The notes beneath the pieces were generated by a model. The model did not search any database. It saw only the letters and a list, made by a program, of their open reading frames with translations, and was not told where the DNA came from. From Bacteroidales bacterium (lineage in GTDB: Bacteria; Bacteroidota; Bacteroidia; Bacteroidales; Muribaculaceae), in contig JAAVGQ010000009.1 of the NCBI GenBank assembly GCA_014800105.1, positions 1 through 12,752 of the forward strand: a stretch of DNA of 12,752 nt, in the 5' to 3' direction. The first letter of the stretch is position 1. Every line of letters begins with the position of its first letter. The position numbers and the translations under genes are program-made. Shown here piece after piece: positions 10,042 through 12,752 of this stretch.

Positions 10042-10062
10042 TGTTCGTTCACAATCTCCGTG
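10042..10062 (+). repeat. Fragment of the palindromic repeat family
   Basis: Twenty of 21 bases match 12554-12574, the inner end of the second long repeat, starting with the same TGTTCGTTCAC 11-mer. Only one arm is present; no GTGAACGAACA partner follows. It lies 38-58 bases upstream of the VanZ-like gene start and about 90 bases upstream of the DUF4421 start. It could be a decayed repeat copy or a protein-binding site. Confidence 0.65.
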
Positions 10063-10149: not shown

Positions 10150-11211
10150 ATGAAGAAAATACTCTATACGCTCTTACTGTCACTCAGTGTCGCGCTCACG
10201 GCTGCCCCCGGGGCTCATGCCGAGCTGCTGTCACTCGACACCATCGCATCATGGGGAAAATTCCCGAAATTCTGTATCGATACTTACCGCTGGGGTGATA
10301 AATTCTTCAACTCTTATGACTCGACCTATGTCGTGGGCACCGGCAAGCGCTTCAACATCAAGCTGCGCACTGACAGCTGGTCAGATGTCTTCAACTTCTA
10401 CTTTGACGAGGAACCTTACACCCGCATGAACATGATGTCGACCCCGACTACGAGCGCCGGCTTCTGGCTCACGTACATGGCCGTGTCAGTGGGTTATGAC
10501 ATGAACGTGGGAAAATACTTCGGTGGCGGCGAGGCGCGGCGACGGTGGTCGTTCCAGTTCAACTGCAGCCTCTTTGCCGCTGACGCTTACTTCTCAAACA
10601 ACGACGTTGCCACCAACATACACAGCGTGGGGCCACGCGGGGCCATAGAGAAAACTGACATTCCTTTTGACGGCATCCACAACGAGTCATGGGGTCTCGA
10701 CCTCTACTACTTTTTCAACCACAAGCACTACTCCCAGGCGGCCGCCTTTGCCTTCAGCAAGGTGCAGGTCAAGAGTTCCGGTTCATTCTATGCCGGGCTG
10801 TCATTCTGGGGGCTGGACTACGACTTCAACTTCAACCTCCTCCCTGAGGATATAAAGACGCAGCTGCCACTGGAGAAATACGACTACTACTATCGCACGC
10901 GAAGCACCAACTATGCCCTGCGCCTGGGCTACGGCTACAACTGGGTGTTCCATAAAGGCTGGACGCTGGCCGTGAGCGAATCGCCCATCATAGGCTTGCG
11001 TCGCGGATGGCTCCTTGACCTTGAGAGCAAGAAATCAAGCCTCTCATTATACAACCGCTTCAAGGCATCGATAGTCTACAACAGGGGGAAATGGTTTGCC
11101 GGAGCAATCTTCCGCATGGAGAACGCCCTCTTCTACGACAAGTCTCACACGATGCTCGGCTCCACCGTGAGTTTCGAGACCTCCCTGGGCTACCGCTTCA
11201 ACCTCTGGTAA
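10150..11211 (+). CDS. DUF4421 outer-membrane beta-barrel protein
   Basis: A 353-residue protein with a Sec signal peptide ending in AHA (residue 24). The mature part is rich in alternating aromatic strands with many Tyr, Phe and Trp residues (for example DLYYFFNHKHYSQAAAFAFS and SFYAGLSFWGLDYDFNFN). It ends in YRFNLW, where a terminal aromatic residue is the usual signal for insertion by the Bam machinery. Motifs such as FNSYDSTYVVGTGKRFNIKLRTDSW near residues 53-77 and the overall length fit the DUF4421 family of Bacteroidetes. The function of the family is unknown; it could be a small porin or envelope structural protein. It is probably a single-gene unit with its own promoter (10094-10124). 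The first long palindromic repeat begins 29 bases after its stop and may serve as a transcription barrier. Confidence 0.85.
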   Translation: MKKILYTLLLSLSVALTAAPGAHAELLSLDTIASWGKFPKFCIDTYRWGDKFFNSYDSTYVVGTGKRFNIKLRTDSWSDVFNFYFDEEPYTRMNMMSTPTTSAGFWLTYMAVSVGYDMNVGKYFGGGEARRRWSFQFNCSLFAADAYFSNNDVATNIHSVGPRGAIEKTDIPFDGIHNESWGLDLYYFFNHKHYSQAAAFAFSKVQVKSSGSFYAGLSFWGLDYDFNFNLLPEDIKTQLPLEKYDYYYRTRSTNYALRLGYGYNWVFHKGWTLAVSESPIIGLRRGWLLDLESKKSSLSLYNRFKASIVYNRGKWFAGAIFRMENALFYDKSHTMLGSTVSFETSLGYRFNLW

Positions 11212-11240
11212 CCACGCGCCCCCCTTCCCCCTCCTTGCGC

Positions 11241-11324
11241 GTGTTCGTTCACGACCTCCCCGCGGGGGAGCGTGAACGGTGTTCACGGGGAGAGGGCACG
11301 GGGATTGTGAACGAACAGTACATC
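11241..11324 (+). repeat. Long inverted repeat, left copy
   Basis: The reverse complement of 12547-12630 matches this stretch at 81 of 84 positions, with mismatches at 11254, 11269 and 11292. Bases 11241-11317 are the core, and the identity runs 7 bases further inward. The copy is itself palindromic. End sequences TGTTCGTTCAC (11242-11252) and GTGAACGAACA (11307-11317) are exact complements. Inside are CTCCCC-GCG-GGGGAG (11256-11270) and CGTGAAC-GGT-GTTCACG (11271-11287). It sits between the convergent 3' ends of the DUF4421 and ATPase genes, and its inner end touches the ATPase stop codon (11323-11325). No T-tract follows the hairpins, so it is not a standard terminator, though it may still block transcription. 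Confidence 0.93.
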
Positions 11325-12270
11325 AACAGCTCTGCGTTACCTTGTGAACTACACCCACTGACAATCCCATGCTGGAGGCAATCTGCCTGATTGACTTGCC
11401 TTCCTGACGCTGAGCCACTATCTCCTGGCGCTGCTCATCAGTGAGACGGCTGTTGGGTCCCGAAGAAGTCTTCAGATGCTCTCGCTCCTGGCAAGGATGC
11501 AGATGCTGGAAGTGCAGGAAACCTTCATTCTTTACAATGCGGGATGTAAGCACATTGCTATCGCCCATGGTGATAGGGCACACTCGCGACTTAAGTTGCT
11601 TGATGTAGCGCACGTCGTCACCCTGCGTGCTGCGCCCAATGGCAAAGACGCTGTCAAAGAAGTTGAACAGACGCTTGGAGCCGGCAAGGTCATTCTGCGT
11701 GATAGGAGTATTGTTCTCACGCTTGGGAGTGTGGGCAAGAATCAGTATCGAAAGGTCCCAAGCTTTCTTGTACTCTATCATCTTAACCATGAAATCATGT
11801 GCGGCAAGACCGTTTTCACTGTCAGCACACATAAAAGTGAGGTTATCGATGATGATAATGTCAGCACCGGCACGGTCAGCTGCTGATATCATATTGTCGA
11901 CAAAGTCAGTAGCCTTTACGCTTTGTACAATGCTGGTATTGTCGATTTCGCAACGCAGGAAATTCTCGTGAAACGGGTAAATGTCACCCTTCTCAGTACT
12001 ATAGCGCAGCTGGAACTGCTTGGCGCTCTGCTCAAAGTCAAAATAGATTACGCGCTTACCTTTACGGGCAATGTGGTCAGCAATCTGCACGGCATATATA
12101 CTCTTGCCAGCATTGGAATCAGAGAACAGGCAAGCAGCCTCCCCTTCATGCCACAGGTTCTGCCACAATGGCTCGGGGTTAGCAATGACCGCAGCCTGCT
12201 TGCACCAGGCACGAGCGCTATCAACACGGAGGCAATCCTCATTAAACGTACTCATTGGTTCGATAATCAT
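11323..12270 (-). CDS. RepA/KaiC-like P-loop ATPase with C-terminal helix-turn-helix
   Basis: A 315-residue protein. A RecA-type AAA ATPase core spans about residues 30-255. Its Walker A is SDSNAGKS (50-57), with Ser in place of the first Gly. Walker B is DIIIIDN (137-143) and ILILAHTPKR (175-184) is the strand-and-sensor region typical of RepA-like hexameric helicases. A linker around 255-275 leads to RLTDEQRQEIVAQRQEGKSI (275-294) and RQIASSMGLSVGVVHKVTQ (295-313), a helix-turn-helix like the C-terminal tail of serine resolvases and invertases. Bacteroidetes plasmids, phages and integrative elements often carry such ATPases beside a primase or DUF3987 gene; here it stands alone. A role in DNA replication, mobilisation or regulation is inferred. 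The start at 12270 follows an A-rich leader; ATG at 12255 (residue 6) is the alternative. It is convergent with the DUF4421 gene, and both its ends lie within the inverted repeats. Confidence 0.85.
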   Translation of the reverse strand: MIIEPMSTFNEDCLRVDSARAWCKQAAVIANPEPLWQNLWHEGEAACLFSDSNAGKSIYAVQIADHIARKGKRVIYFDFEQSAKQFQLRYSTEKGDIYPFHENFLRCEIDNTSIVQSVKATDFVDNMISAADRAGADIIIIDNLTFMCADSENGLAAHDFMVKMIEYKKAWDLSILILAHTPKRENNTPITQNDLAGSKRLFNFFDSVFAIGRSTQGDDVRYIKQLKSRVCPITMGDSNVLTSRIVKNEGFLHFQHLHPCQEREHLKTSSGPNSRLTDEQRQEIVAQRQEGKSIRQIASSMGLSVGVVHKVTQSC

Positions 12271-12364
12271 AGTAGATCAAGTTTTTAGAATGATTAATAA
12301 TTAAGAATGTATGTAACACCTCGGTCAAGAGGTTTAGATATACTCCTCCCCCTTCCACTCCTTC

Positions 12365-12381
12365 CTATATATTATATATAG
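12365..12381. repeat. 17-base AT palindrome
   Basis: CTATATATTATATATAG is a perfect palindrome around a single central base, about 95 bases upstream of the ATPase start and inside the repeat-bounded block. It follows a C/T-rich run (12343-12364). It could be an easily melted site, a regulator-binding site or a weak hairpin in the mRNA leader; nothing in the sequence decides between these. Confidence 0.6.
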
Positions 12382-12476
12382 TGGAGAGCGGATTATCGAA
12401 AGGTTGCTTGCAAGCGAGATTGAAAGCCGGTTGAGGAATCAGGGGATAGAGTGTCGTTATGACCTCATCGGCGATA

Positions 12477-12484
12477 CAAAGATA
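12477..12484 (-). promoter_or_regulatory. Possible -7 promoter box for the ATPase gene
   Basis: On the minus strand the bases read TATCTTTG, a full match to TAnnTTTG. The nearest TTTG upstream (12513-12510) gives a 25-base spacer, longer than usual. It would produce a leader of about 200 bases that includes the AT palindrome. It lies inside the inverted repeats, so it would move or flip with the gene. Confidence 0.3.
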
Positions 12485-12546
12485 CGACCACCGCTGAGGC
12501 AGCCGTATGCAAAAAACATACTATGCCCGGGGAAAACTCACCCTGA

Positions 12547-12630
12547 GATGTACTGTTCGTTCACAATCCCCGTGCCCTTTCCCCGTGAACACCGTTCACG
12601 CACCCCCGCGGGGAGGGCGTGAACGAACAC
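12547..12630 (-). repeat. Long inverted repeat, right copy
   Basis: This is the partner of 11241-11324 in opposite orientation, 81 of 84 positions identical. Its ends are TGTTCGTTCAC (12554-12564) and GTGAACGAACA (12619-12629), and it keeps the internal palindrome around CGTGAACACCGTTCACG (12584-12600). One of the three differences falls in the GC-rich hairpin and leaves a T-T mismatch there. It lies between the ATPase leader and surE, 71 bases before the surE start. Confidence 0.93.
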
Positions 12631-12668
12631 CCCGCTGCTACCGGCACGGTCGTTATCGAAATTATTTG

Positions 12669-12676
12669 TATATTTG
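12669..12676 (+). promoter_or_regulatory. -7 promoter box for surE
   Basis: TATATTTG matches TAnnTTTG exactly, 25 bases before the surE ATG, in an AT-rich stretch. No good TTTG -33 box lies 19-21 bases upstream, because that interval is taken by GC-rich sequence just outside the right repeat. Confidence 0.45.
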
Positions 12677-12701
12677 TGGTTACAATAATTATTACCGACT
12701 C

Positions 12702-12752
12702 ATGAAACCACTCATTCTCATAAGCAACGATGACGGGGTTATGGCTCCCGGC
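12702..12752 (+). CDS. surE: 5'/3'-nucleotidase SurE (3' end outside window)
   Basis: Only the first 17 residues are visible: MKPLILISNDDGVMAPG. This is the highly conserved SurE N-terminus, in which the Asp pair (residues 10-11) binds the catalytic divalent metal and SNDDG-x-x-APG forms the active-site loop. SurE is a cytoplasmic phosphatase acting on nucleoside monophosphates and, in some bacteria, short polyphosphate, linked to stationary-phase survival. The start is set by the family N-terminus and by a promoter box 25 bases upstream. The gene is divergent from the ATPase gene and lies just outside the right inverted repeat. Confidence 0.93.
   Translation, partial: MKPLILISNDDGVMAPG

Follow-up and report, generated by a model that had tools for sequence, protein, structure and literature searches.

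Self-loading initiator helicases are known from the Rep-ori system of the Staphylococcus aureus pathogenicity islands (SaPIs) and from Cch/Cch2 of the staphylococcal cassette chromosome mec (SCCmec), in which, according to passages of PMC7581432, a C-terminal domain reads iterons and the origin lies directly downstream of the helicase gene. The same passages place these helicases in the DUF927 and Primase_Cterm/D5 families, which appear to differ from that of the gene described here. In the present study, we analyzed a 12,752-nucleotide stretch of DNA (the window, by which we mean the whole stretch) that carries an ATPase gene enclosed by 84-base inverted repeats. The window probably holds a mini-replicon element with its own origin at both ends. 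This is more interesting than an inverted-repeat cassette, because the unit is one member of a wider family of ATPases with cognate arrays. Judged from sequence comparison, the family would be best explained as initiator-helicases with iteron origins, an explanation that we favor with moderate confidence.

An ATPase gene between two arrays

An earlier note on this DNA had described nearly identical inverted repeats on both sides of the gene, and the comparison confirmed them. The left arm agreed with the reverse complement of the right arm at 81 of 84 positions, with sharp edges (blastn E 2.4e-34 within the window), and its inner edge overlapped the stop codon of the ATPase open reading frame (ORF), as the note had said. 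Twelve further inverted repeats in the window were 20-25 nt long and 72-95% identical, and the one at 95% was a fragment of the 84-base repeat. Each arm is an array of the short unit GTGAAC/GTTCAC with nested palindromes, laid out as TGTTCGTTCAC, about 19 bases, GTGAACGGTGTTCAC, about 20 bases and GTGAACGAACA, followed by GTACATC. These seven inner bases had been taken as a sign of paired ends, and this view was not upheld. GTACA also followed the core in one of the three copies on C16 of the same genome (another reads GTANA, with one unread base) and in the half copy on C34, and GTAC was present in the related array on C148; thus, GTACATC belongs to the repeat itself and is not special to the window pair.

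The ATPase was the sole credible gene between the arms, in agreement with the earlier note; three other ORFs (114-136 aa) overlap it on the opposite strand. According to the Pfam results, the protein matched AAA_25 and HTH_38, weakly DnaB_C, and otherwise helix-turn-helix (HTH) families only. The structure comparison lists contained KaiC, DnaB and T7 types, which corresponds to a predicted ring helicase fold. The families of SaPI Rep, Cch and Cch2 (DUF927, D5) were not among these Pfam or structure matches, lists that could miss families outside them. No transposase was found between the arms: the ATPase had no transposase catalytic domain in Pfam, and the overlapping ORFs of 114-136 aa lay outside the Pfam scan.

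Cognate arrays in related units

A genome-collection scan with an alignment of five ATPases yielded 399 relatives, of which the best 80 were examined, giving 45 distinct 3' regions; a second set added 28 new loci out of 30. It was observed that most of the relatives examined (Bacteroidota) carried an array whose short units face both ways, located directly after the stop codon or within the 3' end of the reading frame. GGGACA was the commonest unit, and GTGAACA, GTGGACA, CGGACA, GGTAACA, GAGAA and the GTAAC and GAAAC types also occurred. In a dinucleotide-shuffle test within 150 bases, 34 of 50 representatives had an array at p<=0.02. The following gene, scanned at four loci and one plasmid, was DUF6371 in all of them (below the curated cut-off in L002); at other 3'-region loci, the start of DUF6371 was recognized by eye only. 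Most relatives examined had the array on a single side, within a module of ATPase and primase genes, and for this reason it looks like an iteron origin rather than a plain transposon end. Among the larger elements with a one-sided array, one lists its own integrase. In the cfxA elements (Bacteroides plasmid records L228, L229 and L230, all circular), the array forms part of the coding sequence at the 3' end of the ATPase ORF.

The recognition helix of the ATPase changed together with the letters of the array. The helix S[VLI]GxV was found with GTTCAC arrays in 13 of 13 cases and with all other arrays in 0 of 53 (Fisher 4.9e-14), a count in which 66 of 69 distinct proteins were scorable, three rows without a scorable array were left out and several of the other arrays were weak. 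The S[VLI]G pattern was chosen after the first set had been seen. In the second set, eight of the 28 loci had GTTCAC, all with the pattern; L152, L161 and L154 are copies or near-copies of others, which leaves five new rows, and among these L178 and L179 are close kin. SKS or GKS helices occurred mostly with GGGAC or GGAC, and VPDKT and VPEKT with GAGAA. On a core-only tree, six changes were counted for the helix trait and six for the array trait, and all three independent pairs with strong branch support agreed. The simplest reading of this covariation is that the ATPase itself very likely binds the array through its own HTH, which supports the earlier suggestion that the repeats are recognized by the ATPase.

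In the Muribaculaceae variant of the family, the arrays bracket the gene. (The window was assigned to Muribaculaceae since two loci of its family are copies or near-copies of loci from records so named.) When the same test was applied to all, a repeat pair surrounded 15 of 71 distinct ATPases versus 2 of 164 control ORFs. The expectation that homologues at other loci would also have a repeat pair was therefore borne out: small bracketed units recur at other loci and in other genomes, with other arrays and on contigs of 49-152 kb (L129, L133, L079), and in several genomes they stand between unrelated host genes. Judging by eye from the translations, we take the neighbors to be dxs and mazG (L133), luxS (L173) and a galactokinase gene (L175). 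On a tree of 69 rows, 17 of them called bracketed, at least seven state changes fell on strong branches, and the best tree had nine changes against a shuffled mean of 15. DUF6371 was found near 10 of the 17 bracketed units. The ATPase was present at E<=1e-30 in 55 of 397 genomes of the family.

In genome G033 of the same family, 14 ATPase homologues were found and 13 loci were fetched (L004, L009, L011, L013, L015, L017, L019, L021, L023, L025, L027, L029 and L030). The homologues form subgroups of units that are 88-94% identical over about 1.26 kb or more in differing contexts, with another dispersed repeat round several of them; on its sequences, the set looks like a recent spread. The homologues in G010 were weak and were not used. 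At L110 (4646-5933), a primase-like gene and the ATPase stand in reversed order within one inverted-repeat pair (95 bases, 77%).

The window comes from G000, a metagenome-assembled genome (MAG) of 1.47 Mb that is 56% complete, and G000 was the one genome among 61 searched that contained the 84-base repeat. Two copies lie in the window and three on C16; C102 and C34 have partial ones, and position 10042 of the window has a half copy. The 5' part of the element is multi-copy, with four copies in G000 and three array types (A, B and C). A second ATPase on C7, 71-72% identical to that of the window, is followed by a 251-aa DUF6371 gene, and this unit is bracketed by 119-base direct repeats that are 96% identical and carry the array TTGTCCCGTCCC ... 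GGGACAACTGTCCC ... GGGACGGGACAA, unlike that of the window. In line with the helix-array covariation, the two ATPases are 75% identical in the core and 50% in the HTH tail. Parts of the upstream module (17-bp palindrome, promoter, and AT-rich and polypurine leader) were also found on C75, where the contig end cuts the module, and on C148, where the module adjoins a third array type with GGAC units. When aligned, arrays A, B and C had a common layout, A and C also shared part of the spacer text, and the units had changed in concert.

About 275 bases of upstream region lie between the arms beside the window ATPase gene (Table 1). The 17-bp palindrome was identical in the window, C7 and C75, that is, in three of the four element copies, and had two changes in C148; its form, GTATG-N7-CATAC upstream of the ATPase promoter, resembles an operator site for some regulator. 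The promoter-like TATCTTTGTATCGCC is presumably of the -7 promoter type of Bacteroidales.

Table 1. Features of the window, with positions counted from its first base
Feature	Position	Strand	Remarks
Left arm, putative iteron array, family A	11241..11324	no strand	Outer units TGTTCGTTCAC 11242-11252 and GTGAACGAACA 11307-11317; inner palindrome GTGAACGGTGTTCAC 11272-11286; then GTACATC
Right arm, inverted copy of the left-arm array (81/84)	12547..12630	no strand	Outer units 12554-12564 and 12619-12629; inner palindrome 12585-12599
ATPase, 315 aa	11323..12270	-	Predicted RecA-fold (KaiC / DnaB / T7 gp4-like) core; C-terminal HTH; recognition helix SVGVV
Promoter-like TATCTTTGTATCGCC	12470..12484	-	Present in window, C7 and C75; three positions changed in C148 (alignment)
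17-bp palindrome GTATG-N7-CATAC	12505..12521	no strand	Between right arm and promoter; operator-like
Leader, AT-rich stretch and polypurine tract (GGAAGGAGTGGAAGGGGGA)	12335..12387	-	Conserved in C7 and C148; C16 keeps a remnant
Solo half copy of array	10042..10062	+	At the start of a VanZ-like gene
Left neighbor, DUF4421 gene (host)	10150..11211	+	
Right neighbor, surE 5' end	12702..12752	+	Cut by contig end; opposite orientation to five of seven same-genus relatives

Other arrangements were observed in the same genome. Direct repeats of 185 bases (93.5%) occur on C16 (L041, 8658-11168), and each of them combines a B array with an A array. The 2.1-kb stretch that they bracket contains a gene for an AAA_14/DUF4143-type ATPase, together with a remnant of the element leader and a third A array. 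On C75 (L146, 608-1051), an IS200-type Y1 transposase gene (Y1_Tnp) adjoins a type C array, with short hairpins close by. With regard to repetitive extragenic palindromes (REPs) and their associated transposases (RAYTs), the observations were dispersed arrays and one Y1_Tnp gene beside one array, the latter recorded on C75 without a genome-wide search for more. Several known classes were also considered. For a toxin or cargo cassette, the copies on C102 surround a small gene, a 123-aa stretch of which had no Pfam match. For an anti-phage defense system, four proteins scanned against the PADLOC models matched none of the families. No known RNA family reached the gathering threshold in 11200-12752. 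An integron attC was considered for the three direct copies round one gene on C16 and was dropped because related arrays with other letters exist; moreover, the C16 copies presumably lack the usual attC core.

Insertion sites and competing explanations

The earlier note had expected an empty site with adjacent DUF4421 and surE in close relatives, and the sites proved more complex than that. None of the seven same-genus relatives had an ATPase match, and in five of them DUF4421 adjoins surE; however, the two genes are convergent there with their 3' ends close (from ORFs in four, by eye in L047), surE in the window is turned round relative to these five, and in the remaining two DUF4421 has another neighbor. 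The remainder of surE had no match in G000, an incomplete MAG. The ATPase was absent from the flanks in 19 of 19 relatives at the L129 site and 19 of 19 at the L133 site, which were examined from 26 and 35 matched relatives, respectively; the flanks of L187, L210 and L214 were short. At the L133 site, inspection by eye put mazG beside a DHH-type gene in 15 of the 19 relatives (for four, on a clipped translation), two flanks were too short and two differed; dxs, the neighbor beyond the unit in L133, was beside mazG in none of them. At the L129 site, the upstream neighbor of the right-hand gene varied among the relatives, so this site is informative only for the absence of the ATPase. At the C7 site, comparison with one relative showed an inversion, relative to ribH, of the two-gene block that lies past a MATE gene on the left side of the unit; most others differed again. 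Where this could be judged, the units sat at places of altered gene order, but synteny is loose in Muribaculaceae.

We propose that the unit, with the layout array-promoter-ATPase-array, is a small chromosomal element. The ATPase would be a RecA-fold ring helicase of the DnaB/KaiC type whose C-terminal HTH binds the short array units, and it may act as a self-loading replication initiator with the array as its origin. In most relatives examined, a single array is located 3' of the ATPase gene, frequently with a putative primase gene (DUF6371, toprim-like) after it, and the module belongs to a larger mobile element. Muribaculaceae often have the array on each side, and the bracketed unit then occurs by itself between host genes, whether or not it includes the primase. 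Such a unit could spread as a mini-replicon in which the arrays act as the origin and also, being repeated, as sites of recombination; recombination at the arrays would account for the solo arrays and for inversions. Of this proposal, we infer the helicase activity, the function as an origin and the movement. A broader proposal is offered tentatively, as a possibility that we would not yet back: Muribaculaceae might harbor minimal mobile elements whose ends are their own replication origin, in which a single initiator-helicase bracketed by HTH-read arrays both replicates and spreads without integrase, transposase or relaxase, and in which HTH and array change in concert, so that the incompatible types A, B and C coexist in one genome.

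Several observations weigh against the initiator-helicase explanation. All 15 bracketed ATPases belong to the window's family (15 of 30 placed there versus 0 of 41 others), and in G033 a repeat pair across the gene was found in one of 13 loci (L025); the G033 loci are not counted in the 13/13-versus-0/53 or 15/71 figures. Sixteen of the 50 representatives, including the window (p 0.03), failed the array test within 150 bp at p<=0.02; several of these have the array inside the ORF end, and the C7 array lies beyond its second gene. The three independent helix-array pairs are too few for a phylogeny-corrected sign test to reach p 0.05. Solo array copies exist in G000 away from any ATPase, and they partly contradict the earlier view of the repeats as linked to the ATPase. 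The contig of the window has its end 122 bp past the right arm, and in a MAG that is 56% complete the surE junction could be an assembly join. No recombinase was found in the bracketed window unit, and no target duplication above chance was detected in six bracketed units (words of 4-12 bases, 6 bases slack), the one 4-base word at the unit ends of L129 being reached by 46% of random placings. In addition, the cfxA circles may represent intermediates of excision and not replicons, and the gene table for the plasmid is incomplete.

Alternatively, the arrays might be operators and/or terminators, with the HTH making the ATPase an autoregulator at its own promoter and 3' end, without replication or movement. 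Such regulation would suit the spacing seen in most bracketed cases, with one array about 100-400 bp upstream of the start (a greater distance in L002, L162 and L110) and the other at the stop codon; it would also suit the folding of an arm into a GC-rich hairpin (-38 kcal/mol as RNA); the covariation of HTH and array fits a regulator as well as an initiator. We nevertheless consider autoregulation unlikely, because the array is 3' only in most relatives examined, the arrays of C7 and L173 lie beyond a second gene, arrays also occur away from any ATPase, and the ATPase-DUF6371 pair is a replication type of operon.

Still less probable is a usual transposon, in which the 84-bp inverted repeats would be the ends, the ATPase a target-selection or helper protein, and the transposase would act in trans. 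The sharp edges of the repeats, the multi-copy state, the small units between unrelated genes in several genomes and the Y1 gene beside the type C array on C75 are consistent with it. However, that gene was seen at one array only, target duplication was not above chance in the six units examined, larger elements have a one-sided array and one lists its own integrase, and the ATPase fold is KaiC/DnaB-like. The pair was inverted in ten and direct in seven of the 17 bracketed cases, a split that is only partly meaningful since each array is palindromic and the pairs of L110, L166 and L169 share few or no units. The small mobile cassette of the earlier note, with the repeats as its ends, is accordingly retained in part: the bracketed unit recurs and all seven relatives lack the ATPase, but the arms are not plain transposon ends, and neither a recombinase nor a target duplication was found with them.

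Finally, a chance double insertion of REP-like repeats or of miniature inverted-repeat transposable elements (MITEs) next to an ATPase gene that does not itself move, or a join made in assembly at a dispersed repeat, would account for the solo and partial copies (C16, C102, C34, window 10042) and the reversed surE; the nearby contig end and the incomplete MAG also speak for it. This explanation is highly improbable, given that repeat pairs of other array types enclose ATPases in other genomes, on long contigs, that such pairs are far commoner than at the control ORFs, and that array type and HTH agree in the enclosed ATPases.

Comparison with known systems

According to passages of PMC4755523, PINSR is a 188-bp dispersed repeat of Prevotella without terminal inverted repeats; it resembles the window array as a dispersed non-coding repeat of Bacteroidales, and those passages mention no linked ATPase. 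A 2017 review (PMC5704250) states, in the passages concerned, that the replication of excised integrative and mobilizable elements has never been studied. In this respect, the ATPase family is a candidate replicator for excised mobilizable elements, with a visible recognition code. The array beside each gene names its predicted binding site, so that specificity and incompatibility might be predicted from sequence, and the bracketed units, if the proposal is true, would be among the smallest chromosomal mini-replicons. Literature searches, covering open-licence papers only, found no paper on bracketed ATPase-array units, and one may exist in print elsewhere; a single paper that mentions DUF6371 once came up.

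The ATPase-array unit resembles known initiator-helicase/iteron-origin systems, and by analogy the SaPI and SCC elements are the closest working model. The shared features are a predicted ring helicase, an iteron-like array directly 3' of the gene, a putative C-terminal reader domain and a primase gene in the module. In contrast to SaPI and SCC, the window-type core is RecA/KaiC/DnaB-like, and the array often lies on both sides of a unit without integrase. The integrative and mobilizable elements of Bacteroides of the cfxA type, which we take to be Tn4555-like, are similar in their homologous ATPase and in a GGGAC array within the 3' end of its reading frame. CP103138.1, of this type, has a DUF6371 gene with a zinc ribbon, and its 10 kb circle also carries genes for integrase, excisionase and mobilization; unlike in the window unit, its array is on one side only. 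In IncQ / RSF1010, the RepA ring helicase is of the RecA fold and the origin consists of iterons, which are read by a separate RepC; the window ATPase would share the RecA fold and the iteron origin, whereas its HTH is part of the ATPase itself. In phage P4, a phage satellite, the alpha protein is one initiator-helicase with a fused primase that serves two distant iteron arrays (ori and crr). The combination of one ATPase with two arrays is thus shared with the window unit, whereas the helicase of P4 belongs to another superfamily.
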